Shown here: piece after piece, positions 2,295 to 59,876 of the stretch
Layout: every line of letters starts with the position of its first letter
How positions within the stretch are numbered: the stretch's first letter is position 1
From: Xestospongia bergquistia
Lineage: Eukaryota; Porifera; Demospongiae; Haplosclerida; Petrosiidae
Reading direction: 5' to 3'
Assembly (NCBI GenBank): GCA_963965975.1
Contig: OZ014413.1
Location: forward strand, 498,501 to 562,500
DNA length: 64,000 nt
Made by a program: the position numbers and the translations under genes
Notes under the pieces: generated by a model
What the model was told of the DNA's origin: nothing
Seen by the model: only the letters and a program-made list of their open reading frames with translations
Databases searched by the model: none

Positions 2295-3747
2295 TTAAGA
2301 TTGAGTGTCCTGTTTAGCTTTCTTCTCTTTCAATCGTTTCTGTTGTATCAGATATTGATGACGTTTAAATGTCTGCCAGTAAGGATTAAGACGAATCATG
2401 ACTTGTGAATTCTTTAGAGGGTTCTTCTTAATAGGGGCACGACGAGATCGTCTGGGACTACAGAGAAGAGAGTGAGTAAACAAGTATAGTTATAAGAAAT
2501 ATTTACCCTTTACGTTTGAGCTGTTTCTGGACTTCTTCAGAGTTAATAATACGAGCTAAATCACTATTTGTCATTGTGTGACGAGGTAACCTGTGTAGGA
2601 AGAACAAAAAAGACAAATTATTAATTATTATTAATATATAATAATAATAATACTATTATTAATAAATAAAACAAAAAATTATGAACTAAACAATGGGTCC
2701 AGCATAACAATACTTACTTGTAGTTTTTCTTGCATTTTGATAGCTTGTTAAATGTTCCATAAATTCGATCTAATTTCTCAAAGGCACTCTTTGTCCAAAT
2801 ACAAAATCGACCCATGTGACCTCCAGGAGCAAGTCGTAACAAATTCAATTTATTCACATTTAACAGCTCCACTCCAGGAAGATTACGAAAAGCCTTCTTA
2901 ATTCCACCATCTTTACTGTATATAACCAATGGTCCTTTCTTTTGAAGGTAACGACGATTCCTCATCTTACCCTTCCCAGGACGAATCCTCCTAGTCTGTT
3001 TGCTACGATCGACATCTTCATATGCTTTCAATGTCTTCAATAACTTAACAGCTTCCTTAGTTTTGTTCATATTTTGTATAGAGTCAGTCACTACCAGTGG
3101 TATCTCTCCCACTTTACGAATACGATGACCACGTGCTGTCACTAATGCTGGGAGTGCTGTAGCTGCTAGAGCAGAGCACATGGCGTAACGTCTTTGGTTA
3201 AGGTTGACTTTACGATGCCAACGTCGCCAGGTTTTAGTGGGTGCAAACATACGACCTTTACGACACATCTAAAACTAAAGTTAAAGACTACAACAATACA
3301 TTAATAACTTAGCATTCTATGATAAAATAACATTACATATCTAAGTATGGATACATTTCCAAAAGCTGCTTGACCAGAACGATGAGTACCTCCTCCTCTC
3401 ACACGAGGGATACGAGCCACAGCACGTCCAGTACCCCAAGACTCAGCACTTGTCTGATGCCCCGCCTTCCTAGATACTGCATAAGGTTGACGTTTGTTCT
3501 TAGACATATTGGTATGTACATATTGTAAAATGTCCTGGCGTATGGGGGCCTTGAAAACAGCAGGCATTCCCACCTGAGCACAGGATTTACCCTCCTCATC
3601 AAATACTGTAACTAAAGGTCTAGCAGACTAAAGAACAAACAAAAGTAATTTATTTAAATATATTTATAATAATATCCTTACATTTAATAAAACAATATTG
3701 CTAATATTTTTATAATACAATATAATGTTTATTATTGTACGTACCAT
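2295..3747 (-). CDS. RPL4: Ribosomal protein L4 (uL4), cytosolic large subunit
   Basis: Exons on the minus strand: 3745-3747 (ATG only), 3355-3627, 2718-3268, 2507-2590 and 2295-2457, giving 357 aa. All introns are GT-AG and phases agree. The protein starts [16 protein letters not shown] and contains the family segments [53 protein letters not shown] and the tail [18 protein letters not shown]4 is a structural protein of the 60S subunit; its extended loop lines the exit tunnel. The length is close to the yeast protein and shorter than human, which has a longer C-terminal tail. The start codon sits alone in its own exon, directly followed by the donor GTACGT. It is divergent with COMMD6, 181 bp between start codons. 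Downstream lies a broken copy of its 3' end (41-735). Very high confidence. Confidence 0.98.
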
Positions 3748-6437: not shown

Positions 6438-9400
6438 ATGGCGGAGAAGCTAGAGAAAGGTGAGGAACGATAGCTGTAAAATCAATAGTATAAACTCAAA
6501 ATGAACGCACAGTATGTACCCAAACTATACAATATAAATATATTGTAATTTAACTATATAATGCAGTGTTTGGGTAGTGGGCATTATTTGGAAATACCCA
6601 CCTTGATATAGATGATGTGATCTAGTGTTGTTTTGTTCTTTTCTTGTTACTAGGTACCAAACGAAGCCTTTCTCCGAGTGATCATGTCAAGACAAGAAAG
6701 AGGGTAGATTGAAATAACACAAGATACTTTGACAATAAAAAAACAAACACTATTTTACAACAACCTAAACTATAACACTATTAACTGTTAACTTTTTCTC
6801 ATTACATATTCATTATTTTTTCCACATATCGTACCAAATTTTTATCCGTATAAGTAGCAATGTTGTCATGGCAACAACTATGAATATATAATGAGAAACA
6901 GTTTCATTAAGTTTTATTAATTAAATTAATTAATTACAGGTGAAATTAACTCCAGCTGATATTAAAGATATGAAACGTGACAAAATAATAGCAAGGTATT
7001 AATTATTACTAGTTATATTAATAGTTATTAATAGTTATTAATAGTTGGAAACAACAAGATGTTTATATTGATAGTCTCTTAACGCAACTTGAGAGTTCAT
7101 CGGCTGAAGATGTAGCAAGGTATGAATGGATGGATGGATGGATCAATGGATGCATAGTAGGGGTAAATGGATGCATGCTGAGATAAATGGATCTATGGAA
7201 TATGTTGTTTGATTTATGTTATGAATGTAATGGATACATTGTTTAATGGATGAGGAGTATGTGAATACATAGTGTTTTAATGGATATATAATTTGATTAA
7301 TGGATATATGAGTTGATTAATGGATATATGAGTTGATTAATGGATATATGACTTGATTAATGGATATATGACTTGATTAATGGATATATGACTTGATTAA
7401 TGGATGTATAAGTTGATTAATGGATATATGAGTTGATTAATGGATATGTAAGTTGATTAATGGATGTATAAGTTGATTAATGGATATATAATTTGATTAA
7501 TGGATATATGAGTTGATTAATGGATATATGAGTTGATTAATGGATATGTAAGTTGATTAATGGATGTATAAGTTGATTAATGGATGTATAAGTTGATTAA
7601 TGGATATATAAGTTGATTTTTAGATGTATCAGTCACATAGAGAGAATTTTAGAACTAAAGTGGATCTAACACACACCCTCTCTCTCACACACCCACACAC
7701 ACACACACACACCCACACACACACACACACACCCATACACACATACTCATGTACAGGTTAAGAGAGTCAGAATCAAAGCTCCAATCACAGGTTCAAGAAC
7801 TAACAAGACGAGAGAATGTACTAAATATGAGACTAGCTACTAAACAAGAAGAAATGAGAAACCTATTAGTCAGTAACCATAGCAACTACACTATACTATG
7901 AATTATCAATATATAATTAACTCTCCAATATTTATTTTATTACAGTATCATGTTAAAATGGAATGTTATTCTTAATGGTTAACTGGTTAAAATTGTATGT
8001 AGTTATATTGTACCTAATAAGTGTATTATATATCACTACATTATAGTATGTATATGGACCTTGTAATCTTACTATAGAGATGTCTTAAGTACAGTGGTTG
8101 AATGATATACTGTAGTATTATTGGTATGGGATTAGAACAAGTGTCCTGAATATAGAGTGTTCTTAATGAGATGTTTCACTATATTTTAATGCTATTATTG
8201 TTTGCTGTATATCTCTTGTAGGCTCAATTACAAGATTTAAAAGAGTCCCAGAACTCAGAGAGTAGTAATCTTCATAATATGTTAGTTGATCCAGCTGTTA
8301 ACTTAGTTTTTCAACAAATGTCGACTGGACTTAAAGAGTCACGAGATAAATTAGAGCAAGCTCAAAACGACTTGAGTGCATGGAAATTTACACCTGACAG
8401 GTGAGAGCTAGGACAATAGTTCTGATAGTTGAGTCATCTTTGTTTACTGTTAATTTATATGGCTTTATTGGTCTATTATGATCTGTTGCTATTGTTTGTA
8501 AATATTATACTATCTGTAATAGTGGCAGGTTAAAAACGACCGTATTTGGGTAGATACAGTTATAATACTGTTTAATATAATATATTGGTTATTTATGACA
8601 TACTATTATGATATTAATATAACCTTTTTTTCTAGTGTTACTGGGAAGAAATTAATGTCAAAATGTCGTAGCTTGCTCCAGGAAAATCAAGACCTCGGCA
8701 AGCAGATATCACAAGGTAGGGTAGCCCAGCTGGAAGCCGAGGCATCGTTACATAAGAAACATTGCCAAGAATTAAAGGAAACATACGAGGGTAAGACATG
8801 ATTGTATTTGGTTCATAATAGTACTTAGTTCTTCTTAATTCCAATTATTATTAACTTGTATTACCTCATTTGTTGGCTTTTGTTGGACGTTTGTTGTTGG
8901 CCTAATATCATATGTACCACAATGGATATTGGCTCCCCTGTTTTATTAATATTTTTATATCCATTGACTGATACGGAACATTTCCTGTAAAGATATGACC
9001 ACATAATGATATAATAATTCTAGGAGTTCCCTTGTTTATGATGTAATACTATTTCATAATTGCTATATAATAGATTATACCTATTAGATATTTGTAATAT
9101 CAAATAAAATTAAATATAAGACCATCTTATATAAACAACCACTATGTATGTATGTACAGTGACTTTTGATGTCTTTTTGTTTCCTACAATGTAATAATAA
9201 TATATCATTATAACAAGTTATAATATGGCATAACAAAATTTGATCTTAAGTTCAAAAATTTAACATCAATTTTGTTCCATTAATAAAGGGGCTTACCCCA
9301 CATTATAACTCTATTTTTATAATACTTGTAGAGCTCACAGAGTGTGTGATGCAACAAGATGAAGAAGGAGAAGCTCTAATGGCCACCATTATTAGTTTAC

Positions 9401-28906: not shown

Positions 28907-31900
28907 ATGCATATAAGGGATATTGAAAAACTTAAAGTTTGGCTTTTAAAGAAGTTGCAACCTTTGTAAGTTAATAGATAAGTTTTTAGTGATGTCTGTT
29001 GATTACAAGCTGGTCCTCAAACTCATACATTGAGACATACCAATGTTTGGGAATGAGACTACTATATTAGTTGTATGTATATTACTCATTAGTTGTATGA
29101 ACAGAAAAATATTGTCCTATTTTAAATTATTTATTTTTATTTCCAATTAATTGACATTTGTTTATACATCCATTTCTCAGTTCATGCATCCATTACTCTG
29201 CTCGTGTGTCCATTTATCACTATGCTTCCATTATTTGTTCCTAGATGTGATGCTGATCCAGCTGCTCTTTCAAAATATATCGTTGCTCTGTTACGGAAGG
29301 AAAAACCTCGTTCAGCATTGAAAGAACTTTGTGTAAATCAATTAGAAGTATTTCTATCAAAAGGTATGCTAATCATGTGATCAGTCACATGACTAGATTC
29401 ATAAATCACATGACAGTCAGACATCATATGATTTCTTTATTTTAGAAACACCATCTTTTGTTGATAAATTATTTCGAAGTTTAGACAGTGAGTCTTATTT
29501 GACAGGTGCTGATGATCACGAGACCACTCCCCCTTTGAATGCTTCTAGTAGTAATAGTAGTGGTGATAGTGGGCGGAGTGGAGGGGGTGTGGTCAATAGT
29601 GAGTCGCCCTTATTAGGTTCGGATCGAGTAGTTATTGATCATCGACGTCAGTCTGAAGATATAAGACACAGAGAGGTAATGGATTAATAGATGAACAAAT
29701 GGATGTATGGTAGATCAAGTAATAACTGAAATGGATGTATGGTAGATCAAGCAATAACTGAAATGGATGTATGGTAGATCAAGTAATAACTGAAATGGAT
29801 CTATGGTAGATCAAGCAATAACTGAAATGGATCTATGGTAGATCAAGCAATAACTGAAATGGATCTATGGTAGATCAAGCAATAACTGAAATGGATCTAT
29901 GGTAGATCAAGCAATAACTGAAATGGATCTATGGTAGATCAAGCAATAACTGAAATGGATCTATGGTAGATCAAGCAATAACTGAAATGGATCTATGGTA
30001 GATCAAGCAATAACTGAAATAGATGTGTATAGTTCGATGATTATGAGAAATGGATCAATAACAATGGACACTAACTTTATATTCTATTTAGGTTGATGAC
30101 GATGATCGTGACTTTCGTCGAGCTCATTATCGTCACGACTCCTCCCCCTCATTTACTTACCCTCGTCCTGGAGGAGTAGGAGGGACCAATACTGCAATAG
30201 AAAGAAACAAAAAGAAAATTGAAATAGAGCCACCACGACGTTCAATTAGACAAAGACTAGGATACAGAGAAGAAGAGAGAAGGTAAAAAAAGACAAAATA
30301 CATTACATTAGTTATTATATAATTACGGAAGCTGCAGACGGACATTCTAATTCCTATTTCTTGTTTCTTCCGCGAACATTGGCGCATTTAAAAATCCCAA
30401 TTACCGACCAGTTAGTGAATTCAAATTTCTTATTCCTATTTCCATTTTTGGCATGTGTGGCATTCTAGTTGTTACTTAATAAAATGCGGAGCGTGAGTAC
30501 CATGAGCTGTCTCTTAGAATCGAGCGCCAGTGAGATGTTTCCAGTTAGGTTGGGTCCCTGACTTTGGTTGTATATTGTAGGTCTATTATTTAGGGAAGCC
30601 GAGGACGGACATTAAAACTCCGTATAATCCCATTTCATTGAAATTGGAAATAGCAATTGGAATGTCCGTCTGAGGCTTCTATATATTATACATATAGCTC
30701 CTAATAGTATATAGCTCTTAATTGTATATAGCTCCTAATAGTATATAGCTCCTAATTGTATATAGCTCCTAATAGTATATAGCTCCTAATTGTATATAGC
30801 TCCTAATAGTATAATAGCATTCACTTACATTGAATATAAGTGCAGCTGTAGTTTACATATAGTACATGTTTGGTGATAGTTAATATAATCACAACAGACT
30901 TACTAGATTATAATACTTCCTAATGAAATTTGTCATTATTGTAATATTAAATATTTACATGTACATGTAATACCATGACATCATTATGACATCATTAGGC
31001 GTAGGAGACCTAGGAGTCGTAGTCGAAGTCGTAGTAGTACACCTGATAGGAACAGTAGTCCATCGCCAAGTACCACACCCACTGGAGAATTGGATAATGA
31101 CAGAGGACATCGTAAACGTGTGCATAGTGAACCAATGGGTGGAGTCAGTAACGATTTAAAACCTGTTGCTAAGAGACAGAGATGTAAAGATTATGATGGT
31201 AAATAAAGCACAAATTAAAGAGCATACCCCTTTTAATTATCTGTTTCTTTAATAGAAAAGGGGATGTGTCTATTAGGAGAACAATGTCCTTATGACCACG
31301 GCAATGACCCTCTTGTAATTACAGGGATTCCCTCATACCCTCCTCCTCCATTTCCATTAACAATGCCACCTCCACCCCCGCCTAATTTACCGCCATTTCC
31401 TCAGGGATCATCTGGTTTATTACTACCTTCATTAGTGCCTCCATCAGGAGGAGCATCCCCTTCAAGTAAGCCACACCCACAATTAGAGATTTGTTCCCTT
31501 TTGTCATAACATGTATTACATATTGACATTACTTTAATTTTTATTTAGGAACAGATGGTTATAATCCTGAAGACCCGTCCCTTACAGCTGGCACTAACCC
31601 TCCCCCACTACCTCCCCCTCCACCACCACCTTCCCTATTACCACCACAAATGCCATTAAGACCTGCTTTTCCACCCTCCCTACCAGGTAAATTTATTATA
31701 TCAAACCACACCCACTAAACATTAATTACATGTATTTTTACATGTAGGTTTACCAGGTATGCCACCATTACCTCCTCCTCTTCACTCTAATATACCCAAC
31801 CCTGCGCTACCTAGTGCATTTACACCTGTAAATGCTAAAGCTCCACCCATTGCCCCACCCATTCCAAGGTAGTAATTAATAATATTTAATTTATTAAATA

Positions 31901-34944: not shown

Positions 34945-35850
34945 CCATACCTACTTTGATGACCTATAATGCCATCATTACTATTAACTGATAACTGAAT
35001 ACACTATTTTACATTACCTTATATTACCATGGCAACATCTGTTGCTATGACAATGTAGAATTATTTAATCATTGCTATTACCTTGCTAAACTTTGATTTT
35101 GGAATATTATTAACACTTTATTTAATTTTAACCTTTACAATGGTTATCAGTAAAAAAACTTAAGACCATGGTTTAAAAAAAAGAATTTAAGGGAAAAAGA
35201 CATATTTTAAAAAAAAGAAAAAAAACAATGAAGAAAAAAAGATTAAAAAATGAAAAAGAGAGACCATGGCACTAAAAATGCTCCGTTTATTTTTTCTTTT
35301 ATTTTATTTTTTTAAATTGACAGAAGATGATCTCAACTTGGAATCATTGTCATATTACATCTGTTAATATAGACATCATTCATCTGTCCATCCATCCATC
35401 CATCAATTCTCTTATCATTACTATCTTTTCATATATCCATGTATTGTTAATAATGTATTATATTATCAATTCTAGGTAATAAATTCAATAAACCAGTCAT
35501 AAATGAATTAATAAATTCACAATTTTCTGAATATGCTAAAATGTTCCATTAGGTTTAGAATCATTAGCAACAGATACAGTACCATTATTAACCCTATGAC
35601 ACATAGTGATGTCATCATACAGTACAATTTACATCATACATCAAGAAGCACTATGACTGTACTATATGATACAGTTGACTTTATTCTGTAAAAATCAAGA
35701 AAGATCAATGAGAATATTTCAACTAATTACTATAGTGTGTTCTTATATTAATGACTGATGAATATAAATATTATGATGACAGTAAAGATGCAGTTTCAAA
35801 CTCCATCTTTAATAAATTTTACTGCCACGACCAATAATTAAGTTAATTTT
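34945..35850. other. RBM27 3' region and intergenic
   Basis: No gene seen. It holds A-rich tracts at 35160-35270. The segment 35308-35400 recurs, diverged, at about 47960-48140, on the far side of the tandem array. The two copies bracket 12.6 kb. Confidence 0.6.
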
Positions 35851-36100
35851 CACAAAGGCGCCAAATTTGTGTGGAAGAAATTTGATTGGCTAATGTTTGT
35901 TATTCCACTCACATGATGTATTTGTTATTCTCTATTGGAGACACATTGTCTCTCATGGAGTCACAATGTCTCTCATGGAGTCACATTGTCTGTCTTATCA
36001 CACCATACAATAAGCACAAGGTTCTCTCAGTATTTAAAGCTGAATGCAAAGTGTGAAATCCTTTCATTCTGTTCTAGTGTACTCTCTCTCTCTTCTCTGC
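35850..36100 (+). promoter_or_regulatory. Possible promoter of the tandem-array transcript
   Basis: GGCGCCAAATTTG at 35857-35869 is followed by GATTGGCTAAT (inverted CCAAT box) near 35883. Then come two near-identical stretches of TCTCATGGAGTCACA and a TATTTAAA (36030-36037). It lies just upstream of the first exon-like block of the array. Promoter function is inference. Confidence 0.35.
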
Positions 36101-36239
36101 TTGAAAAGGACTTAGGCCCTCTCTCTCCTCTCTCTCTCTGGACTGGCCAGATCCTTCAGCCTGTTCCATTGTAGTTTCTCCTCTACTCAGAAAGGATTTG
36201 GCCCTCTCTCACTCTCTTTCTGTGGACTGGCTCTCTGGA

Positions 36240-39200
36240 ACTGGCTCTGGCTGACTATTGCTGTGAGTCATGGTTGTCTTCTGCAACGATACTTGATAAG
36301 AAGGATGCGGAGTATTTCAGAACTAACGAATGTAGCTGCCTTCTGTGACTAATTAATACTGGGAAGGAGACCTTGCAGTGGAGATTGAATATTCTACTAA
36401 TAAAAATGCTGCCGATATTAATAGTGCTCATCTGTAAAAGGAGAGGTCTGCTACCAAACTGAAGAGCAGCTTGCTTTTAGTAGAGAACTTGAAATATTTT
36501 GCTACAAAAACTACACCTGGTAGGTTGAGTATTAATTAATTAAAAACACATACATGTAATATTTAGGAATGGAGACTATAGTTGTTTAATACTTCTTTTT
36601 ACAAGATATTTATTTCAATTTCAGAATTCTCAACCCAATGATGACAATGGATTGCTCTCTCTATAATGTATACTGATCCTTTCTATGATGATTGTATACA
36701 TACTATGGAACAGCTGGGAAGAAAAGACACTGAAAGAAAAGAAAGTGTCCTCTACTATCAATATCCATTGAAGAGATGTTGTGAACAGACGTCTAACTCT
36801 TTGTCAGAAATCAATTTCTTCAATCTACTACTGTTATATGAAGATGGATCATCTGCTGTGAGAATCATTTGTGAGGTGTCATTGTGGACCAAAGGACTGC
36901 TGGTATTTAAATGTAGACTATAACTAATATAGACTAGACTGAACATTTTACTAAACTATTAATAGTAATGTAGTATGGGGGGACAGAGTAAGCTAGTAGT
37001 AGACAATATAGGGTACTTATTATTAATCAGGTAGTGTTTAGGTGTATAGCAAATAGTAACTAGTAATAATTCTTACTGTAATAAATTATAAATCTAGAAT
37101 TTTTTAGAAAGTACTGGTAATTTTTTTGTTTTGTAATCTATTTTTTTCTGTAATCTAGTATTATTTATAAACTAGTATAAGTATAGAATAGGTAGTCATC
37201 TTCAGCAAGAATCTACCATTATTGTCTACCATTGTTCTGGGACTCTACTATGAAGATTGAAAGAAATTGATTTCTCAATGTAGTTAGATGTACTGTTCAC
37301 AATATCATTCAATGTTCTTTCTCTACTGTTAAAAATAGTCTACAATTATTATCATGTAAGTTTACAGTCTATTATAATAATATGTTAGATATTAATTTAT
37401 TTTATTTTTTATAGCATAGGAATATTTTCTACCATGTGGATGATGTGTCCTCTGCTGTCACGATGTATTTCTAAAGAGATCTTTGTGGACAAAAGGACTA
37501 CTGTTCTATTGATGCTGACAACCACACAAGAACTTGATCATTCCATGGTAAAGAAATGTGAGTAATGTAATAATGGATGGGCTAGTGGGTTAAGGTAACT
37601 GGTAAGATAAGATTACTACATTTCTATTTAATAGATAGTCTTTAGATGAAGACATTAATAGGTAATCTAGACTGGTTGAATATCTGTCTTGCTAATTCTA
37701 TACACTGGACAAGTTGATGGCGAGTAGAGTGTCAATAGAGTTAGATGCTTTACCCTTTTACCAATTCCCTTGGAAGAAACACAGACTTTTGATGTGATAA
37801 CCTCTTGTAGGAAGAGAAGCTTCCATGTAATGGAGAAGACAAATGTGAGTTTGAACTAACTGGTACAATAAGCATTAATTAGAACCTACTCTGGCTGACT
37901 ATTGCTGTGACATTGCAGTGGAGATTCTACTAATGGTGCTGATATAATAGTAATGATATCTAATGGAGAAGTCTGCTACCAAACTGAAGACCAGCTTGCT
38001 TTTGATGCTGTAAAGTTTTGCTACAAAAACTACCTGGTAGGTTGAGCATTAATTAAAAACACATACATGTAATATTTAAGAATGGAGACTATAGTTCTTT
38101 AATACTTTTTTTACAGATATTTATTTCAATTTTCAGAATTCACAACCCATGCAATGCTGACAATGGATTGCTCTCTATAATGTATACTGATCCTTTCTAT
38201 GATGATTGTATACATACTATGGAACAGCTGGGAAGAAAAGATATTCAGTTCCATTGTTAAAGTCTACCAAAGATCGAAAGAAAAGAAAGTGTCCTCTACT
38301 ATCAATAGTCATTAAAAAGAGATATTGTGAACAGACGTCTAACTCTTTGTCAGAAATCAATTTCTTCAATCTACTACTGTTATATGAAGATGGATCATCT
38401 GCTGTGAGAATCATTTGTGAGGTGTCATTGTGGACCAAAGGACTGCTGGTATTTAGATGTAGGCTATAACTAATTGAACATTTTACTAAACTATTAATAG
38501 TAAAGTAGTATGGGGGGATAAGCTAGTAGTAGACAATATAGGCTACTTATTAATTAGGTAGTGTTTAGGTGTATAGCAATAGTAACTAGTAATAATTCTT
38601 ACTGTAATAAATTATAAATCTAGAATTTTTTAGAAAGTACTGGTAAACTTTTTGTTTTGTAATCTATTTTTTCTGTAATCTAGTAATTTTAGTTATAAAC
38701 TAGTATAAGTATAGAATAGGTATAGATTCATCTTCAGCAAGAATCTACCATTGTTGTCTACCATTGTTCTGGGACTCTACTATGAAGATTGAAAGAAATT
38801 GATTTCTCAATGTAGTTAGATGTACTGTTCACAATATCATTCAATGTTCTGTCTCTACTGTCAAAAATAGTCTACAATTATTATCATGTAAGTTTACAGT
38901 CTATTATAATGCTCTATGTTAGAAATTATTTTTTTTTTAATAGCATGGGACTATTTTCTACCATGTGGATAGATGTGTTGTTAGAGACATGGTACATGTC
39001 CTCTGCTGTTATGATGTGTTTCTAAAGAGAATCTTTGTGGACAAAAGGACTACTGTTCTATTGATGCTGACAACCACACAAGTACATGATCATTCCATGG
39101 TAAAGAAATGTGAGTAATAATGGATGGGCTAGTGGGTTAAGGTAACTGGTAAGATAAGATTACTACATTTCTTTTTAATAGGTAGTGTTTAGATGAAGAC

Positions 39201-42200
39201 ATTAATAGGTAATCTAGACTGGTTGAATATCTGTCATGCTAATTCTGTACACTGGACACTGATACAAGTTGATGATGAGTAGACTGTCACTGGAGTTAGA
39301 TGCTTTACTATTTTGATGTGATAACCTCTTGTAGGAAGAGAAGCTTCCATGTAATGGAGAAGACAAATGTGAGTTTGAACTAACTGGTACAATAAGCATT
39401 AATTAGAACCTGCTTTGGCTGACTATTGCTGTGACATTGCAGTGGAGATTCTACTAATAAAAATGCTGCTGATATAATAGTAATGATATCCAATGGAGAA
39501 GTCTGCTACCAAACTGAAGAGCTGCTTGCTTTTGATGAAGAACCTGTAACTACCTGGTAGGTTAAGCATTAATTAAAAACACATACATGTAATATTTAAG
39601 AATAATAATTAGGAATAATTAGGAATGGAGACTATAGTTGTTTAATACTTCTTTTTACAAGATATTTATTTCAATTTCAGAATTCTCAACCCAATGATGA
39701 CAATGGATTGCTCTCTCTATAATGTATACTGATCCTTTCTATGATGATTGTATACATACTATGGAACAGCTGGGAAGAAAAGACACTGTGAAAGAAAAGT
39801 GTCCTCTACTATCAATATCCATTGAAGAGATATTGTGAACAGACGTCTAACTCTTTGTCAGAAATCAATTTCTTCAATCTACTACTGTTATATGAAGATG
39901 GATCATCTGCTGTGAGAATCATTTGTGAGGTGTCATTGTGGACCAAAGGACTGCATGGTATTTAAATGTAGACTATAACTAATATAGACTAGACTGAACA
40001 TCTTACTAAACTATTAACAGTAAAGTAGTATGGGGGGATAGAGCTAGTAGTAGACAATATAGGCTACTTATTAATTAGGTAGTGTTTAGGTGTATAGCAA
40101 ATAGTAACTAGTAATAATTCTTACTGTAATAAATCAGATTGATCTAGAATTTTTTATAAAGTACTATTAAATTTTTTGTTTGTAATCTTATTTTTTTCTG
40201 TAATCCGGAAAGTAAATTTTTTGTTTTCTAATCTATTTTTTTCTGTAATCTAGTATTTTTATAAGTATAGAATAGGTATAGAGTCATCTTAAGCAAGAAT
40301 CTACCATTGTTGTCTACCATTGTTCTGGGACTCTACTATGAAGATTGAAAGAAATTGATTTCTCAATGTAGTTAGATGTACTGTTCACAATATCATTCAA
40401 TGTTCTGTCTCTACTGTTAAAAATAGTCTACAATTATTATCATGTAAGTTTACCGTCTATTATAATATGTTAGAAATTAATTTCTTTTTTATTATAGCAT
40501 GGGACTATTTTCTACCATGTGGATAGATGTATTGCTAGAGATATGGTACATGTCCTCTGCTGTTATGAGACATTTATGATGTATTTCTAGAGAGATCTTT
40601 GTGGACAAAAGGACTACTGTTCTATTGATGCTGACAACCATACAAGTACATGATCATTCCATGTTAAAGAAATGTGAGTAATGTAATAATGGATGGGCTA
40701 GTGGGTTAAGGTAACTGGTAAGATAGATTACTACATTTCTTTTTAATAGGTAGTGTTTAGATGAAGACATTAATAGGTAATCTAGACTGTCTTGCTAATT
40801 CTGTATACTGGACACTTGATACAAGTTGATGACGAGTAGACTGTCACTGGAGTTAGATGTGATAACCTCTTATAGGAAGAGAAGCTTCCAGAGAAGACAA
40901 ATGTGAGTTTGAACTAACTGGTACAATAAGCATTAATTAGAACCTACTCTGGCTGACTATTGCTGTGACATTGCAGTGGAGATTCTACTAATGGTGCTGA
41001 TATAATAGTAATGATATCTAATGGAGAAGTCTGCTACCAAACTGAAGACCAGCTTGCTTTTGATGCTGTAAAGTTTTGCTACAAAAACTACCTGGTAGGT
41101 TGAGCATTAATTAAAAACACATACATGTAATATTTAAGAATGGAGACTATAGTTCTTTAATACTTTTTTTACAGATATTTATTTCAATTTTCAGAATTCA
41201 CAACCCATGCAATGCTGACAATGGATTGCTCTCTATAATGTATACTGATCCTTTCTATGATGATTGTATACATACTATGGAACAGCTGGGAAGAAAAGAT
41301 ATTCAGTTCCATTGTTAAAGTCTACCAAAGATCGAAAGAAAAGAAAGTGTCCTCTACTATCAATAGTCATTAAAAAGAGATATTGTGAACAGACGTCTAA
41401 CTCTTTGTCAGAAATCAATTTCTTCAATCTACTACTGTTATATGAAGATGGATCATCTGCTGTGAGAATCATTTGTGAGGTGTCATTGTGGACCAAAGGA
41501 CTGCTGGTATTTAGATGTAGGCTATAACTAATTGAACATTTTACTAAACTATTAATAGTAAAGTAGTATGGGGGGATAAGCTAGTAGTAGACAATATAGG
41601 CTACTTATTAATTAGGTAGTGTTTAGGTGTATAGCAATAGTAACTAGTAATAATTCTTACTGTAATAAATTATAAATCTAGAATTTTTTAGAAAGTACTG
41701 GTAAACTTTTTGTTTTGTAATCTATTTTTTCTGTAATCTAGTAATTTTAGTTATAAACTAGTATAAGTATAGAATAGGTATAGATTCATCTTCAGCAAGA
41801 ATCTACCATTGTTGTCTACCATTGTTCTGGGACTCTACTATGAAGATTGAAAGAAATTGATTTCTCAATGTAGTTAGATGTACTGTTCACAATATCATTC
41901 AATGTTCTGTCTCTACTGTCAAAAATAGTCTACAATTATTATCATGTAAGTTTACAGTCTATTATAATGCTCTATGTTAGAAATTATTTTTTTTTTAATA
42001 GCATGGGACTATTTTCTACCATGTGGATAGATGTGTTGTTAGAGACATGGTACATGTCCTCTGCTGTTATGATGTGTTTCTAAAGAGAATCTTTGTGGAC
42101 AAAAGGACTACTGTTCTATTGATGCTGACAACCACACAAGTACATGATCATTCCATGGTAAAGAAATGTGAGTAATAATGGATGGGCTAGTGGGTTAAGG

Positions 42201-45200
42201 TAACTGGTAAGATAAGATTACTACATTTCTTTTTAATAGGTAGTGTTTAGATGAAGACATTAATAGGTAATCTAGACTGGTTGAATATCTGTCATGCTAA
42301 TTCTGTACACTGGACACTGATACAAGTTGATGATGAGTAGACTGTCACTGGAGTTAGATGCTTTACTATTTTGATGTGATAACCTCTTGTAGGAAGAGAA
42401 GCTTCCATGTAATGGAGAAGACAAATGTGAGTTTGAACTAACTGGTACAATAAGCATTAATTAGAACCTGCTTTGGCTGACTATTGCTGTGACATTGCAG
42501 TGGAGATTCTACTAATAAAAATGCTGCTGATATAATAGTAATGATATCCAATGGAGAAGTCTGCTACCAAACTGAAGAGCTGCTTGCTTTTGATGAAGAA
42601 CCTGTAACTACCTGGTAGGTTAAGCATTAATTAAAAACACATACATGTAATATTTAAGAATAATAATTAGGAATAATTAGGAATGGAGACTATAGTTGTT
42701 TAATACTTCTTTTTACAAGATATTTATTTCAATTTCAGAATTCTCAACCCAATGATGACAATGGATTGCTCTCTCTATAATGTATACTGATCCTTTCTAT
42801 GATGATTGTATACATACTATGGAACAGCTGGGAAGAAAAGACACTGTGAAAGAAAAGTGTCCTCTACTATCAATATCCATTGAAGAGATATTGTGAACAG
42901 ACGTCTAACTCTTTGTCAGAAATCAATTTCTTCAATCTACTACTGTTATATGAAGATGGATCATCTGCTGTGAGAATCATTTGTGAGGTGTCATTGTGGA
43001 CCAAAGGACTGCATGGTATTTAAATGTAGACTATAACTAATATAGACTAGACTGAACATCTTACTAAACTATTAACAGTAAAGTAGTATGGGGGGATAGA
43101 GCTAGTAGTAGACAATATAGGCTACTTATTAATTAGGTAGTGTTTAGGTGTATAGCAAATAGTAACTAGTAATAATTCTTACTGTAATAAATCAGATTGA
43201 TCTAGAATTTTTTATAAAGTACTATTAAATTTTTTGTTTGTAATCTTATTTTTTTCTGTAATCCGGAAAGTAAATTTTTTGTTTTCTAATCTATTTTTTT
43301 CTGTAATCTAGTATTTTTATAAGTATAGAATAGGTATAGAGTCATCTTAAGCAAGAATCTACCATTGTTGTCTACCATTGTTCTGGGACTCTACTATGAA
43401 GATTGAAAGAAATTGATTTCTCAATGTAGTTAGATGTACTGTTCACAATATCATTCAATGTTCTGTCTCTACTGTTAAAAATAGTCTACAATTATTATCA
43501 TGTAAGTTTACCGTCTATTATAATATGTTAGAAATTAATTTCTTTTTTATTATAGCATGGGACTATTTTCTACCATGTGGATAGATGTATTGCTAGAGAT
43601 ATGGTACATGTCCTCTGCTGTTATGAGACATTTATGATGTATTTCTAGAGAGATCTTTGTGGACAAAAGGACTACTGTTCTATTGATGCTGACAACCATA
43701 CAAGTACATGATCATTCCATGTTAAAGAAATGTGAGTAATAATGGATGGGCTAGTGGGTTAAGGTAACTGGTAAGATAAGATTACTACATTTCTTTTTAA
43801 TAGGTAGTGTTTAGATGAAGACATTAATAGGTAATCTAGACTGTCTTGCTAATTCTGTATACTGGACACTTGATACAAGTTGATGACGAGTAGACTGTCA
43901 CTGGAGTTAGATGTGATAACCTCTTGTAGGAAGAGAAGCTTCCAGAGAAGCCAAATGTGAGTTTGAACTAACTGGTACAATAAGCATTAATTAGAACCTA
44001 CTCTGGCTGACTATTGCTGTGACATTGCAGTGGAGATTCTACTAATGGTGCTGATATAATAGTAATGATATCTAATGGAGAAGTCTGCTACCAAACTGAA
44101 GACCAGCTTGCTTTTGATGCTGTAAAGTTTTGCTACAAAAACTACCTGGTAGGTTGAGCATTAATTAAAAACACATACATGTAATATTTAAGAATGGAGA
44201 CTATAGTTCTTTAATACTTTTTTTACAGATATTTATTTCAATTTTCAGAATTCACAACCCATGCAATGCTGACAATGGATTGCTCTCTATAATGTATACT
44301 GATCCTTTCTATGATGATTGTATACATACTATGGAACAGCTGGGAAGAAAAGATATTCAGTTCCATTGTTAAAGTCTACCAAAGATCGAAAGAAAAGAAA
44401 GTGTCCTCTACTATCAATAGTCATTAAAAAGAGATATTGTGAACAGACGTCTAACTCTTTGTCAGAAATCAATTTCTTCAATCTACTACTGTTATATGAA
44501 GATGGATCATCTGCTGTGAGAGTCATTTGTGAGGTGTCATTGTGGACCAAAGGACTGCTGGTATTTAGATGTAGGCTATAACTAATATAGACTAGACTGA
44601 ACATTTTACTAAACTATTAATAGTAAAGTAGTATGGGGGGATAGAGTAATCTAGTAGTAGACAATATAGGCTACTTATTAATTAGGTAGTGTTTAGGTGT
44701 ATAGCAAATAGTAACTAGTAATAATTCTTACTGTAATAAATTATAAATCTAGAATTTTTTAGAAAGTACTGGTAAACTTTTTGTTTTGTAATCTATTTTT
44801 TCTGTAATCTAGTATTTTTATTTATATAAACTAGTATAAGTATAGAATAGGTATAGAGTCATCTTCAGGAAGAATCTACCATTGTTGTCTACCATTGTTC
44901 TGGGACTCTACTTTGAAGATTGAAAGAAATTGATTTCTCAATGTAGTTAGATGTACTGTTCACAATATCATTCAATGTTCTTTCTCTACTGTTAAAAATA
45001 GTCTACAATTATTATCATGTAAGTTTACAATCTACTATAATGCTATGTTAAAAATTAATCTCTTTTATTTTTTTATAGAATAGGACTATTTTCTACCATG
45101 TGTATAGATGTGTTGTTAGAGATATGGTACATGTCCTCTGCTGTTAAGAGACATTTATGAATTTCTAAAGTGATCTTTGTGGACAAAAGGACTACTGTTC

Positions 45201-45870
45201 TATTGATGCTGACAACCACAAGAGTACATGATCGCTCCATGGTAAAGAAATGTGAGTAATGTAATATGGATGGGCTAGTGGGTTAAGGTAACTGGTAAGA
45301 TAAGATTACTACATTTCTTTTTAATAGGTAGTGTTTAGATGAAGACATTAATAGGTAATCTAGACTGGTTGAATATCTGTCTTACTAATTCTATACACTG
45401 GACAAGTTGATGGCAAGTAGACTGTCACTGGAGTTAGATTTAGATGCTTTACCAATTTCCTTTGAAGACAAGCAGACATTTGATGTGATAACCTCTTGTA
45501 GGAAGAGAAGCTTCCATGTAATGGAGAAGACAAATGTGAGTTTGAACTAACTGGTACAATAAGCATTAATTAGAACCTGCTTTGGCTGACTATTGCTGTG
45601 ACATTGCAGTGGAGATTCTACTAATAAAAATGCTGCTGATATAATAGTAATGATATGCAATGGAGTAGTCTGCTACCAAACTGAAGACCAGCTTGCTTTT
45701 GATGAAGAACCTGTAAAGTTTTGCTACAAAAACTACCTGGTAGGTTGAACATTAATTAAAAACACATACATGTAATATTTAAGAATGGAGACTATAGTTC
45801 TTTAATACTTTTTTTACAAGATATTTATTTCAATTTCAGAATTCTCATGACAATGGATTGCTCTCTCTAT
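36240..45870 (+). repeat. Higher-order tandem array, seven 1.5-kb units, A/B alternating, exon-like
   Basis: The landmark following the TTTCAG acceptor recurs at about 36624, 38138, 39680, 41195, 42737, 44248 and 45838. Odd units (A) read AATTCTCA; even units (B) read AATTCACAACCCATGCAATG. The spacing of like units is about 3057 and 3053 bp. The A and B types differ, while copies of the same type are almost identical, so a dimer was amplified recently. In each unit I see intron-like borders in the same order on the plus strand. These are TGACATTGCAG|TGGAG to CTACCTG|GTAGGT; TTCAG|AATTC to GGACTGCTG|GTATTT; TATAG|CATGGGAC to AAAGAAAT|GTGAGT; and TTAATAG|GTAGTG to AGACAAAT|GTGAGT. Short frames of 61-91 codons recur but are broken between units, so a spliced noncoding transcript is more likely than a protein. 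Unit 7 is cut off and runs into the minisatellite. Confidence 0.85.
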
Positions 45871-45884
45871 AATGTATACTGATC

Positions 45885-47310
45885 CTTTCTCAACCATAAC
45901 TACTGTATGAAATTGAGAAATCTACCAAGAATATTAGACAAGACAGCCATCGTGCAACTCAACCATAACTACTGTATGAAATTGAGAAGTCTACCAAGAA
46001 TATTAGACAAGACAGCCATCGTGCAACTCAATCATAACTACTGTATGAAGTCTACCAAGAATATTAGACAAGACAGCCATCGTGCAACTCAATCATAACT
46101 ACTGTATGAAGTCTACCAAGAATATTAGACAAGACAACCATCATGCAACTCAACCATAACTACTGTATGAAATTGAGAAGTCTACCAAGAATATTAGACA
46201 AGACAACCATCGTACAACTCAACCATAGCTACTGTATGAAATTGAGGAGTCTAACAAGAATATTAGACAAGACAACCATCGTACAACTCAACCATAGCTA
46301 CTGTATGAAATTGAGGAGTCTACCAAAAATATTAGACAAGACAACCATCGTGCAACTCAACCATAACTACTGTATGAAATTGAGAAGTCTACTATGTGAA
46401 AGTCTACCATAAAATTGAAAGTACAAAAAAGGATCTTCTGTTCACAATATCTATTCAAATGGTCAGAAGATCCTTTTTTGTACTTTCAATTTTATGGTAG
46501 ACTTTCACATAGTAGACTCCTCAATTTCATACAGTAGTTATAGTTGAGTTGCACGATGGCTGTCTTGTCTAATATTCCTACAGTAGTTATGGTTGAGTTG
46601 CACGATGGCTGTCTTGTCTAATATTCTTGGTAGACTTCTCAATTTCATACAGTAGTTATGGTTGAGTTGCACGATGGCTGTCTTGTCTAATATTCTTGGT
46701 AGACTTCTCAATTTCATACAGTAGTTATGGTTGAGTTGCACGATGGCTGTCTTGTCTAATATTCTTGGTAGACTTCTCAATTTCATACAGTAGCTCAATT
46801 TCATACAGTAGCTATGGTTGAGTTGTACGATGGTTGTCTTGTCTAATATTCTTGGTAGACTTCTCAATTTCATACAGTAGTTATGATTGAGTTGTACGAT
46901 GGTTGTCTTGTCTAATATTCCTGGTAGACTTCTCAATTTCATACAGTAGTTGTCTTGTCTAGTATTCTTGGTAGATTTCTCAATTTCATACAGTAGTTAT
47001 AGTTGAGTTGCACGATGGTTGTCTTGTCTAATATTCTTGGTAGATTTCTCAATTTCATACGGTAGTTATGATATGAGTTGCACGATGTTCTCAATTTCAT
47101 ACAGTAGTTATAGTTGAGTTGCACGATGGTTGTCTTGTCTAATATTCTTGGTAGATTTCTCAATTTCATACGGTAGTTATGATATGAGTTGCACGATGGT
47201 TGTCTTGTCTAATATTCCTGGTAGATTTCTCAATTTCGTACAGTAGTTATAGTTTGGTATACTTCTCAATTTCATACAGTAATTATGTTGCATGATGGTT
47301 TGTCTTGTCT
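45885..47310. repeat. Large inverted repeat of a 61-69-bp minisatellite
   Basis: The left arm has seven copies of a 69-bp unit (two copies 61 bp) with ATATTAGACAAGACAGCCAT and CTCAACCATAACTACTG. The right arm carries about eleven copies in reverse complement. Between them is a perfect 55-bp stem (46386-46440 with 46464-46518) and a 23-nt loop (46441-46463). The loop sequence TGTTCACAATATC is also found in the 1.5-kb units, so the palindrome arose from array sequence. The 69-bp period keeps a 23-residue peptide frame open in each arm, in opposite strands; I regard this as a by-product. Confidence 0.95.
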
Positions 47311-48816
47311 AGTATTCCTGGTATCTTTGCAGACAAAAGGACTACTATGTCACTGATGTCCTGCTGTCACAGGATCTATAGTAAGCACACAAGTACATGA
47401 TGCCTCTGTGGAAAAATGATAAATGTGAGTGCTAATGTAGTCATGAATGTACTATTGAGCTAGCTGGTATGAGGGGATCTGGTCATGTTTCTTTTTGTTT
47501 AGGTAGAGAGTATTATAGCATCTAAACTGGTTAATGATCCTTGCTGATTTTGTACTGGACACTGATACAAGTTGATGGTATGAGGACTGTCACTGGAGTT
47601 GGACGTTTTACCTGTTATTATGTGAGTGCTAATGTAAGGTATTGGTAGTTTGAGCATTAATTAGACATTATATAATATACATTTTATTTTTTAAGCTGTA
47701 TTTTTTTCAATTTACAAAAGTCTCAGCCCAATCATCTAGTTTGCTCTGATTCCTTATGTTGTATTATGTACTATCTTCTCTTACTTAGGAGTAAGGAACT
47801 TTACTTGCTCTCTCTGGTTGGTGATATCTGTGATGATCAACATACATTCTCGTGCTCTTATTGTTGTGAAAAGATTCCTCTTTCTTCTCTTTCAAGAAAC
47901 CTTCTAATTATAATGGCCACCTGTTATGTGACTGATTGTTATTTGTTGCTATCTAGTAGGATTATTTTTATATTTTTAAAATTGACAAAAGATTTCAACT
48001 TTATTTACCTTTTCAAGTAACAAAAATATTTCAACTCATTCAACTTCAAATCAACAAAAGATTTCAACTTGATTCAATATAATATGATCATCGTCATATT
48101 ACATCTCTTCATGTATACATCCATTCATCTCCATCCCATCCACTATGACAGTCAATACAATAATGACTTAACATTATTACAGTCTAAATAATGATACTAG
48201 CATTATTACAGTCTAAGTAATGACTCGATACTACAATACATTATTGCATCTTTTCAATACTTGGAAGCTGTAGGTGGCCTGATATAATATGTGATACAAA
48301 CAAAAGACGACATTGACCTACAAGATAATCATTTAACAATTTCTTTAGTCTAAAATGACTTGTTAATATAACATTAGATACACAAATGTTCCTTAGCATG
48401 CTCTTTCATCTTCCGTTCCTAAATAACATTTTTAAACATTAAATGAAGTCTAACCAAATACAACCAACTCTATACATGCATACTCATAAACTAGCTGACA
48501 CACCTCCCTTATTAAGATGTAGGATGAAGCCAATCAAAACAAATAATGAGATAGCTGAGTGACATCATTGGACACTCATTGATGTACTTAACATTTTGTC
48601 TGAGGAGAATGAGCTATCTTGTGTGATCCTGTCTCTCCAAATGACTTATCATTAATGGTCACAAATATGACAAGGGGACTATGGGAGACAACAAGTGTGC
48701 AATTAAAATCTTTTCTAGAGAAGTATATCAGAGCAAATGCTGTTTTTATATTGTTAATAAAAAGAGAAGATGTATATACTGAAAGTGAAAATAAATTGAG
48801 TGAGAAGACAAGTAAA
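47311..48816. other. End of the array locus and 3' flank of the LRR gene
   Basis: 47330-47640 still resembles array exon blocks (GACAAAAGGACTACT, ACTGGACACTGATACAAGTT), diverged. 47960-48140 resembles 35308-35400 next to RBM27. The rest, to 48816, has no gene that I can support; it is 3' flank of the minus-strand gene. Confidence 0.6.
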
Positions 48817-51800
48817 CTACCAGAACACAAGTCTGTCTTTAATAACTTGATAATTGTCCAACTTCTTACAATGCTCTTTATGTTGTCTTGATAAGTGTAG
48901 TTTCTGCAATGTAGTATTTTCAGTAAGTGATGTGCATATTATTGTGATATCATCATCGTTCAGTGAAGTATCATCAAGACATAGTCTTGTCAATGATGTA
49001 TTTGTGCATATAAGTTCAGCTATTGTACTGGTACTAACTGAAGTAACCTGATGATTACATCCTATGTTCAACTCAGTCAGTGTTTGGTTTTTACTGAGTC
49101 CATCGCAGATATATTGGACATTATTATCAGTGATATTACAGAAAGACACTTCTAATATTTTTAATGTTTTATTATTGCATAGCATCTTAGATAAGTGAGT
49201 AATATCTTCATCTGTGACAATAACCTTATGTAATACTAATTCTTCAAGTGTTGTATTAGTAAAGAGAACATCGCTAACTTGTTTGATACCACCTCTAAAT
49301 GGACATGTATTCAGTTCTAGTTGCTTCATTGTTTTATTAGTTGTTAGTATCTCTGACAATCTTGATACACACATACTGTCCAATGAAGTTTTCTCTATAT
49401 CAAGTCTCCACACTGTACACATATTAAGATTTTTAATTATTACTGCAGCATTTTCAGGAGATGATGAAAACAAACGAATTCTCCATTCTTTTCCTGTTTG
49501 TTGTTCTTTCATTAAACTATTCATTACATCTTCACATTGTTCAATAGTTGGTGAATCCAGTATAACAATGTTATCTTCATATTTCCACTCAACAATCCCA
49601 GTGTCTCCTGTTATAAAACAATGTTAGTATAGAGTATAATACATACATAGTAATATATAGTGTAAAAATAAATGCTACACTTATAATGTCAGTGCCTTAA
49701 GTTACAAAATGGAGAAGAGTGTACATGAACCATATGCCAATATTACCTACACACAGCACTAAAACATGCGCTATGTGCTAGTAATTAATACCTTTATGAT
49801 CATCATCTTTACTTAGATGTGTCTTTTCCTCTTCACTTTGTATAATATCTGAAGTACTTGTCGATGTATTCAGTTTATCAGTTGCTATCTCATCAAGTTT
49901 TTGACTTAACTCTGGATTGACAGACTTCATCCAAGCACTTACTGCTGCTATTCTAGATTGTAGATCTATAATAATATAGCATTAACTGAAGTAACTATAA
50001 AATATTATTTCTTACTCTTCATGTTTTCCATTAACTGACTAATCTTGTCTTCTCTTGCTTTTAATTGCAAAGTCAATGATGTTATTTTCTCCTGGAGTAT
50101 CTCAATCTCTTTTTGTTTCTCTATTAATACTTTATCAGTAGCTATATAGAACATAACCATATATGGTATGTACTACTAACAGTACTATAACTCACTTTCT
50201 TTTTGCCTGGTTAACTTTTCTATTTCTAATGTCTTTGCCTTACTCATTTTGAACTCAATTTTTAATTTTTCTCTTAGGTCCGAGTCTGATATGAACTGAC
50301 TGGACACTGAACAATCTACATAAATATTATCAAAATGAAGAGTAAAATGGATTTTAGTAAAGAGTAAAATATTTTAGTAAGGACTAAAAATAAGTCTAAA
50401 TTGACTACATTAATAAAACTAAAACTAAAACTAAAAGGTTTGCTGCACAAAACCAAAACTATAAACCAAAATTTAATTTAATTTTTATAAATTTAATTGT
50501 TGACCTTATTGTTTATTGCTTTTTACCCACAAACCTAATAATAATCAACTTCTACTTATAAGGAAATTCTATTTATAGCTGCCACTATATCTGTAACTAT
50601 ATATAGCTACTATTTACTACATGATTACCTGTATTTAGTGACTTTAATTTTTCTATCTCTTTTAATTTTTCTTGTAGAATAGCTAAAACAGTTGTCATTT
50701 ATTTAAACTTGAATACAACTCACTTCTGTCATCCTCTGATTGCTCTCTTAGTGAAGCATTTCTTTTTTCAAGATCTTTCACTTTATCTGTGAGACACCTG
50801 ACCTCCTACATATCAACACAACAAAGTACCATATTATACTTGTCTTACAAATACCTTATCTCTTGTATATACATCCCAAATGGTACAATGACCAATAGTC
50901 ATTCTAATTAACCCCTTAATTGAGTGGACAGTCCTACGAGCTTTGACAACAAGCAATCCGTACAGATTGAGTGGGAAGGTACAGGCCACAATAATGGAGT
51001 TGCCTTCTTTGATGACTTTCACTGTTATCCATTTCTCCAGTCTTTCAAAGACAGCTGGCATAATATTTGTGATATCGCTTAACATGGACTCATCTGGATC
51101 CCAATTAAGGACAAAAGTGGCAGTTTCGTCTTTAAGAGGAGAAGCAGTTGTTGTTGCTGGAAAGATTTCTTGTAGACAGAGACGAACAGAAATAGATTGA
51201 CAAAATTGATCTATATCTTTCTTGTAAGACTCAATATCTGAATTAGCTTCTTTTATATTGAATCGTGTCACCACTGCTTCAAGATAGTTGATATCAATTA
51301 GTGTACACTTGTCACGAACAATGTCCAACACATCATGGATACTTTTAGAGTAAGCTAAAGATGGTTTGAGCAAAGAGTCACAATCTTCAAGAAACGTTTT
51401 CATATCTTCCAGTGGAGGTGGGTTCTCTTCAATTTTATTTCTGATGCTGTTAAAGGTAATTCCAAATTTTGTTCTAACAGCAGTAAATTTTGGACTCATA
51501 CTTCGAGGAATTAAAATTTTCTTTGGCTCTACAATAAAATTTCTAGTAACAGTAAACTCAAACAATGTTCATACCTTGTTGTGAGCTGCTAACAACATAA
51601 GATGGAACAGTTCCTGAAATAAAAGCAAGCATCATATTACCACTTTAATATTGAAACATACTGTCATTGACATCAGGACCAATGGCTTGAACTTTATCTT
51701 TCTTAACAGCTATTGCTGTAAGGATATATTCATAGTTTGTAGAATGTCATTCATAGTTCATATACTAACCATAGTCATTAAAAATAGCATCACCAAGTGG

Positions 51801-58446: not shown

Positions 58447-58850
58447 GATTTGTTAATTTAGAAAACGTCTATCACTATTTAAAAAACAAATGAGAGATAA
58501 AGATAGACTGTTTTAAAGACAACAATTCAACAATTAATATAATATTGAAGCTTAAATAAAATATATCACTACTTTACTAATATAATAGATAAAGACAAGT
58601 AACTCACGTTAGCGTTATCTTGAAGTAGTCTAGAATCCGATAAAGTTAAAAGTTATCCTGAAAATGTACAATTTGTCAATTCCAACATGTATGGAAAGTT
58701 TGTATCAACAATGACCACACCCAACTAATACCAATACATACATATATACTTGGGTGGCTACACCCACGCACACAGCCCCACCCACCACTTCCTCCACGTG
58801 GTCAATGGTGGTCAACTACTTGCCCCTTTCTCTTTTCTACTCTAATATCT
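58447..58850. promoter_or_regulatory. Shared upstream region FCHSD / HMBS
   Basis: 404 bp between divergent start codons. Near HMBS are a CACGTG E-box (58795-58800), GGTCAATGGTGGTCAAC and a CCACCC-rich stretch (58760-58795). Confidence 0.5.
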
Positions 58851-59876
58851 ATGATGGCAGATAAAGATAGCAGAGTTATTAAAGTGGGATCACGTTCCAG
58901 TCAACTGGCAATGATCCAGACACATACGATCATTGACCACTTACAAAAACTCCACCCCTCAATTACATTTGAAGTCATCACCATGAAAACAATTGGAGAT
59001 CAAGTTCTCGATAAACCCCTCCCCAACATTGGACAGACCAATCTTTTTACTAAAGAATTAGAAACTGCATTAGCTGCTGGTCAAATTGACTTAATTGTTC
59101 ACTCATTAAAGGATCTTCCCACCACATTACCTCCAGGAATGCAATTAGCTGTCATTTATAAACGGGACTCACCCACAGATGCATTAATACTTGCTCCTCA
59201 ATACAAAGGCAAGACGATCAATGATCTTCCTTCTGGTAGTGTTATTGGTACTAGTTCCCTTCGGCGGATTGCTCAATTGAAACGACATTTTCCTAATTAT
59301 CAGTATAAGCCTGTACGAGGAAATTTAAATACTCGTCTTACAAAACTAGACAATAGCGGAGAGTATGATGCGTTAATATTAGCATCTGCTGGTATTGAAC
59401 GTATGGGATGGAAGGATAGAATAAGTCAGGAATTCGATAGCAATTTATGCTTATATGCAGTAGGTCAAGGGGCATTAGCTGTGGAGACACGATCTGATGA
59501 CCAACTAACTCTTGATATAGTTTCTCCATTGAATGATCCTGAAACATTACTTTGTTGTAGTGCTGAGAGGAAATTTCTTCAAGTTTTAGGAGGTGGCTGT
59601 AGTGTTCCTGTTGGTGTTCAGTCTAAAATGGAAAAGGATGGATTTATTTTAGTGGGCGGTGTGTTTAGTCTTGATGGTAGTGAAGTTGTCCAAGGTGAGA
59701 TCGGTAAAGAACTTCCTTCTGAGTATCCATCTTTGGACATATGCAGAGTATTTGGGGAGAAGATTGGAGAGGAATTGGCGAGGGATTTGTTAACGAGGGG
59801 AGCTAAAGAAGTACTTGAAAAGGCAAGAAAAGAAACTGATATTGTGACTGCTCAATTGACAGGGGCATCCTCATAA
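58851..59876 (+). CDS. HMBS: Hydroxymethylbilane synthase (porphobilinogen deaminase), intronless
   Basis: A single uninterrupted frame of 341 aa. The enzyme joins four porphobilinogen units into hydroxymethylbilane, the third step of heme synthesis, in the cytosol. Visible family marks: KVGSRSSQLAMIQ at the start, VHSLKDLPT with the catalytic Asp at residue 88, IGTSSLRR (132-139), RGNLNTR, YAVGQGALAVE, and GGGCSVPVG with the dipyrromethane-binding Cys at residue 250. The length is typical (human housekeeping form 361). The ATGATG start is taken at the first ATG. Human HMBS has many introns and every other gene model here is split, so the intronless state may mean retroposition. The intact frame and conserved residues say it is functional. 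Confidence 0.97.
   Translation: MMADKDSRVIKVGSRSSQLAMIQTHTIIDHLQKLHPSITFEVITMKTIGDQVLDKPLPNIGQTNLFTKELETALAAGQIDLIVHSLKDLPTTLPPGMQLAVIYKRDSPTDALILAPQYKGKTINDLPSGSVIGTSSLRRIAQLKRHFPNYQYKPVRGNLNTRLTKLDNSGEYDALILASAGIERMGWKDRISQEFDSNLCLYAVGQGALAVETRSDDQLTLDIVSPLNDPETLLCCSAERKFLQVLGGGCSVPVGVQSKMEKDGFILVGGVFSLDGSEVVQGEIGKELPSEYPSLDICRVFGEKIGEELARDLLTRGAKEVLEKARKETDIVTAQLTGASS

Follow-up and report, generated by a model that had tools for sequence, protein, structure and literature searches.

In Drosophila, the hairpin-RNA (hpRNA) locus hp-CG4068 is composed of tandem hairpin units that are said to share a common transcript; its copy number changes fast (20 in D. melanogaster and 9 in D. simulans), and a complementary target elsewhere in the genome is described as usual for Drosophila hpRNAs (PMC10317233). 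Endo-siRNAs and hp-RNAs have already been reported from the sponge Amphimedon, so that sponge hpRNAs as such are not new, and some sponge pre-miRNAs are, in the same account, termed long-form (PMC6211395). At the level of DNA, fold-back events that leave an inverted duplication have been described both at breaks in yeast and for inverted duplications in humans (PMC11724301, PMC3907307), and the Tetris foldback transposons carry tandem repeats inside their inverted arms (PMC4079207).

The stretch of DNA analysed here (the window) comprises 64,000 nucleotides, C3:498501-562500, of the 146-Mb genome of the sponge Xestospongia bergquistia; positions given without a prefix refer to it. On its forward strand, self-comparison delimited a tandem array of ~1.53-kb repeats (36369-45890), six of which carry both arms of a facing pair, and the end of the array is the start of a long hairpin built from an inverted minisatellite. 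We read the array as a hairpin-RNA gene and the terminal hairpin as its rearranged last repeat, born by fold-back and minisatellite growth (probability roughly 0.6), the doubt in this combined reading being mostly about the RNA and less about the origin. Transcription of the array and the hairpin, and production of siRNAs from them, are predicted from features of the DNA. The preliminary description had placed a hairpin-RNA locus in the minisatellite hairpin; this designation suits the upstream array better than the hairpin, because the array has arms conserved as facing pairs at several loci plus an upstream region. The layout of hp-CG4068 (PMC10317233) is shared by the array at 36.4-45.9 kb, with its six repeats with facing arms as tandem hairpin units, and not by the terminal minisatellite hairpin. 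In contrast to hp-CG4068, the sponge units form a bulged duplex of ~50 bp with, in C3, a loop of 430-500 nt, their arms recur at several loci, and they are known from sequence alone. Judged by analogy, the array appears to resemble hp-CG4068 most, and its bulged arms appear closer to the arms of miRNA genes. The Amphimedon hp-RNAs, endo-siRNAs and long-form miRNAs (PMC6211395) are likewise sponge hairpins feeding RNAi, a likeness that is drawn from their description.

All six intact C3 repeats carry arm 1 on the forward and arm 2 on the reverse strand, each ~50 nt long and facing the other. Matches to the models of arm 1 (+) and arm 2 (-) were located, respectively, at 36775-36829 and 37249-37308 in repeat 1, 38321-38375 and 38781-38840 in repeat 2, 39829-39883 and 40337-40396 in repeat 3, 41379-41433 and 41839-41898 in repeat 4, 42887-42941 and 43395-43454 in repeat 5, and 44433-44487 and 44912-44971 in repeat 6. 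Right of the array, neither model gave a match within the window at E values up to 1. Patterns of the arm cores (at most 2 mismatches) occurred genome-wide at 35 type-1 and 25 type-2 sites, sites within one array not being independent, and reversed-pattern controls gave 0 sites. The nearest type-1 site was on the opposite strand for all 25 type-2 sites, and 23 of the 25 had a type-1 partner upstream in the hairpin sense; those that did not were located in C10 and at the edge of the C2 array. Facing pairs were recognised by pattern in C3, C1, C2 (2.44-2.46 Mb), C15 and C10, by alignment in C5, and partly at C2:15.717 Mb; type 1 occurred alone at C4 and C14 (600 bp examined at each), and the tally leaves out an arm-like site at C1:27.01 Mb. 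The further arm-family array in C2 (C2:2441369-2458424) has repeats of ~876 bp and gave nine type-2 matches in the 601-bp search.

The distance from pattern to pattern was 314-315 in C2, 450-498 in C3 and 519-560 in C1. When C3 and C2 repeats were compared, the two arm regions aligned at 85% and 88% identity, and beyond the arms there were three short matches (37-53 bp); between C3 and C1, much of the whole repeat is conserved, and that comparison consequently says little on the arms. As in a miRNA family, the arms are conserved and the loop has diverged, both between C3 and C2 and between C3 and C5. In the best fold of one stretch each from C3, C1, C5 and C2 (read by eye), arm 1 pairs with arm 2, and type 1 likewise pairs with type 2 in folds of C15 and C10, each of which contained several arms, the pairing in C10 being partly with an upstream copy (both also read by eye). 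All 19 of the 19 pairs folded gave duplexes of 38-52 bp with recurring bulges. Covariation between the arms is weak (one position reads U-A, U-G and C-G, and other positions are unpaired in some loci), so that the facing arms might be conserved as DNA elements instead. Among catalogued RNA families (Rfam), no match in the window reached gathering, and the six related loci gave weak matches only (E 0.05-0.3), far below gathering; these include matches to plant miRNAs at the C2 and C10 loci, which were rejected. Comparison of 24 of the 25 distinct demosponge mature miRNAs given in PMC4752309 with window positions 36301-47330 produced, as the nearest match, one with 5 mismatches in 17 nt.

The C3 array has paralogues on C1 and C5: the one at C1:7.510-7.520 Mb shares 75-82% identity along extended stretches and 82-87% with a 601-bp probe, and the one at C5:7.543-7.552 Mb shares 67-71%. 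A short motif, GTCTACCAT, recurs in the arrays and in the hairpin: of its nine occurrences in the window, eight lie within the array or the hairpin, and 50 kb of background contained none. The same motif, together with a type-1 arm piece, is present in a self-folding stretch of 600 bp elsewhere (L075, C8:6522201-6522800), which aligns with itself over 441 bases at 67% and folds at -214 kcal/mol. Smaller palindromic places were seen in both paralogous arrays, one of ~92 bp in one of the three aligned C5 repeats (C5:7543424-7543515; L056 5424-5515), and one of 33 bp, near-perfect, in the last C1 repeat (C1:7510751-7510783; L054 5751-5783), which is perhaps a second small fold-back event.

Before the first repeat lies a promoter-like region (35722-36263, forward strand; delimited by BLAST and alignment), which resembles sequence on the same side and the same strand at C1 (70%), C2:2.446 Mb, C2:15.717 Mb, C15 and, weakly, C5, and is common to five of the six other facing-pair loci. 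It was not found in 2 kb at C10, nor in 600 bp each at C4 and C14, and nothing convincing emerged from five 10-kb stretches of background (best match, 21 bp at E 0.005). Within the region, an ATTGG element is kept in all four loci that reach it; TATTTAAAG is common to C3 and C1, but C2:15.717 Mb has an altered version of it and C2:2.446 Mb has lost it. From its sequence, we read 35722-36263 as a putative promoter.

The terminal hairpin is an inverted minisatellite, as initially described, although self-comparison places it at 45889-47323 and not at 45885-47310. Its left arm (45889-46385, forward strand, from unit comparison) consists of seven forward units (69, 69, 61, 61, 69, 69 and 69 bp), and its right arm (46519-47323, reverse strand), for which 'about eleven' units was a fair estimate, of 13 inverted intervals (36, 70, 69, 42, 69, 47, 69, 69, 18, 69, 69, 66 and 52 bp), eight of them full (66-70 bp) and five truncated. 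The central stem, perfect over 55 bp, was found as reported, with its left half at 46386-46440 (+) and its right half at 46464-46518 (-) on either side of a 23-nt loop (46441-46463), and it extends to 113 bp at 97% identity. The left half resembles the sequence that leads up to arm 1 in an ordinary repeat and has TCTG at its 3' end, the right half begins with CAGA, and the loop, when reversed, leads into the start of arm 1. From the centre outward, the unit types of the left arm are GTGC, GTAC, GTAC, CATGC and then three of AGCC type, and those of the right arm are four of AGCC type followed by GTAC types; one left-arm unit is identical to one right-arm unit. Protein coding by the minisatellite was considered and rejected, the units of 61, 47, 52 and 70 bp breaking the frame; as 69 bp correspond to 23 codons, frames do stay open in it for 152 aa on the reverse and 100 aa on the forward strand. 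The longest stop-to-stop frame in the tandem array is 101 aa, and an apparent coding signal from tblastx between arrays was discarded, both strands having scored alike.

RNA folding of 45885-47310 gave -937 kcal/mol on the forward and -922.9 on the reverse strand, with a mean of -338.5 (sd 8.8, minimum -355.3) for 20 dinucleotide shuffles. A total of 540 pairs, grouped into 20 runs without interruption (the longest being 79, 69 and 55), span the hairpin centre. This agrees with the duplex of more than 500 bp previously proposed, except that the unequal arm lengths introduce bulges. In common with hpRNAs, 45889-47323 is thus a long inverted repeat that can fold into an extended duplex. Inverted repeats with arms within 3 kb were also collected from 153 kb of the same genome, namely the window minus the hairpin locus, 39 kb of paralogous arrays (3,056 bases masked; C5:7538001-7541056 reads N) and five 10-kb stretches elsewhere. 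Among the matches listed for this background, the longest, with 386 bp at 70%, was a single palindromic place, and the remaining ones were at most 144 bp.

Several other features of the window are recorded here. On the reverse strand beside the hairpin lie two open frames, one of 268 aa with a leucine-rich-repeat match (LRR_6, 25.2 bits; 48817-49623) and one of 244 aa without Pfam match (50834-51568); the two are perhaps one receptor-like gene. A 404-aa open frame at 58662-59876 (+) looks, by eye, like porphobilinogen deaminase, and one of 184 aa at 2714-3268 (-) matches ribosomal protein L4. Two regular minisatellites, one of 20 bp (7277-7618) and one of 32 bp (29697-30024), are unrelated to the array.

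To the right of the hairpin, 47323-47663 (+) aligns piecewise with the rear portion of the repeat and forms a remnant of the terminal repeat that has neither an arm 1 nor an arm 2 match. The flanks of the hairpin are ~860 bp apart in an intact repeat, and the hairpin therefore replaces that stretch of the last repeat. This seventh repeat lacks the stretch in which arm 1, loop and arm 2 would be expected; the segment normally found before arm 1 is present as a tandem minisatellite and an inverted copy. Directly before arm 1, three places in the C5 array carry sequence that matches one unit together with the central stem at 75-77% identity along 126-130 bp (a fourth place has a unit-like match of 51 bp only), and the C1 array ends in approximately two forward unit copies; the hairpin was therefore built from the repeat's own sequence.

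Read in reverse, the right arm and the loop enter the start of arm 1 (GATATTGTGAACAGA) as in ordinary repeats. The left arm stops at TCTG, 23 nt from CAGA; in ordinary C3 repeats the CAGA side is present and TCTG has no counterpart at that exact place, so that the fold-back step is one that we only infer. A strand ending near the arm 1 start may have folded back at this 4-nt inverted microhomology (TCTG/CAGA, 23 nt apart) and been copied into an inverted duplication, after which minisatellite units would have been gained, lost and exchanged between the arms. The fold-back inverted duplications described previously (PMC11724301, PMC3907307) likewise have short inverted sequences flanking a short spacer and then an inverted copy; in contrast to these, the arms here are a minisatellite with reshuffled units. 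The proposal of a recent inversion fits the perfect centre but is only partly borne out, since the units of the two arms do not follow a mirrored order and some are identical between the arms. No single simple event accounts for a hairpin with such a non-mirrored order, and this order, together with the identical unit, implies either that units were exchanged between the arms or that the array was mixed before the inversion and both arms changed.

The Dicer and Argonaute/Piwi genes expected in the host of an hpRNA are present in the genome: two adjacent Dicer-like genes (C8:0.89 and 0.90 Mb) each combine two RNase III domains with a PAZ match, one of the PAZ matches being just below the cut-off, and six places carry Piwi domains. 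The mature core of miR-2016, taken from the demosponge sequence in PMC4752309, was found in two exact copies 911 bp apart on the reverse strand (C9:218942-218962 and 219853-219873), and for Amphimedon a second miR-2016 copy is described just over 1 kb away (PMC6211395). The miR-2016 matches are the one marker in the sequence that supports the assignment of the locus to a sponge. Under the reading that we prefer, in which the array is a hairpin-RNA gene, transcription from the shared upstream region would yield an RNA with six bulged ~50-bp hairpins, read-through to the end would add one duplex of ~540 bp, and Dicer would cut the six hairpins and the terminal duplex into small RNAs. The six regular hairpins are likely to be the functional product. 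The terminal hairpin should, if transcribed, be a good Dicer substrate according to its predicted fold, and is more likely a by-product feeding the same pathway than a silencer with its own target.

Different explanations can be given for the terminal hairpin. It might be a neutral scar, made by instability of the array and never transcribed or processed, which we consider a substantial possibility that falls short of an even chance: the hairpin stands at a decayed array edge, its units are truncated and their order is scrambled, and similar fold-back events are known at DNA breaks (PMC11724301, PMC3907307). However, read-through transcription is plausible, as the facing arms of the adjoining array are conserved and its upstream region is shared. 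The confidence given to such a scar overlaps with that in our main reading, since by-product and neutral scar share the same origin. That the minisatellite hairpin is instead a dedicated hpRNA locus with siRNAs silencing a target, as the preliminary description had it, would agree with the 540-pair duplex, with the Dicer-like and Piwi-domain genes, with the hp-RNAs known in Amphimedon (PMC6211395), and with the position of the hairpin downstream of, and in line with, the promoter-like region ~10 kb upstream; it is nevertheless improbable. Searches of the genome for the complementary target usual for an hpRNA returned only the hairpin and the end of the C1 array: one unit 24-mer, used as a pattern with at most 2 mismatches, gave 17 matches, and as 16 of these are inside the hairpin and one is at the C1 array end, none was taken as a target; a search with the 69-bp unit, which can miss matches of 21 nt, found the same two places only. 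Moreover, the unit is sequence of the array and not a copy of another gene.

Other alternatives concern the DNA itself. The facing arms could be ends of non-autonomous DNA transposons, or DNA sites bound by protein, rather than RNA hairpins, an explanation that is unlikely but carries some weight, as conserved inverted ends with diverged middles are typical of such elements and the covariation is weak; on the other side, five of the six other facing-pair loci have the upstream region on the same side, some homology continues beyond the arms, and the loci are few and mostly tandem. For the terminal hairpin, a foldback-type transposon with tandem repeats as inverted ends is very unlikely. Its repeated inverted arms around a short middle do recall Tetris (PMC4079207), from which it nonetheless differs in that no second, dispersed copy of the hairpin was found in the genome and that ~860 bp of repeat sequence were replaced rather than inserted into (no target-site duplication was seen by eye), and the unit belongs to the host array in C5. 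An assembly artefact, in which two strands of the array end were erroneously joined, is also a very unlikely source of the hairpin; inverted repeats are hard to assemble, but a false fold-back join should give mirror arms, and those observed differ in unit number, in unit order and in some bases.

Of more interest than the hairpin itself is the gene family to which the array would belong. Tentatively, and with a confidence just under even odds, we propose that sponges have an unrecognised family of non-coding genes (the literature having been compared by keyword, arm sequences not being searchable in print), each consisting of an upstream control region and tandem, long-looped, bulged hairpins of ~50 bp, with facing arms at seven loci in this genome. 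Such genes would stand between miRNA and hpRNA genes: their conserved arms would give defined small RNAs, their arrays would grow and shrink, and new hairpins would be added by fold-back, the minisatellite hairpin having replaced an old one. This bears on the question of how early animals produced hairpin RNAs and how separate the miRNA and siRNA pathways of sponges are. The facing arms and the shared upstream region provide concrete sequences to seek in existing sponge small-RNA libraries, and in the terminal hairpin one can follow, base by base, how a repeat array may give rise to a new hairpin within it.
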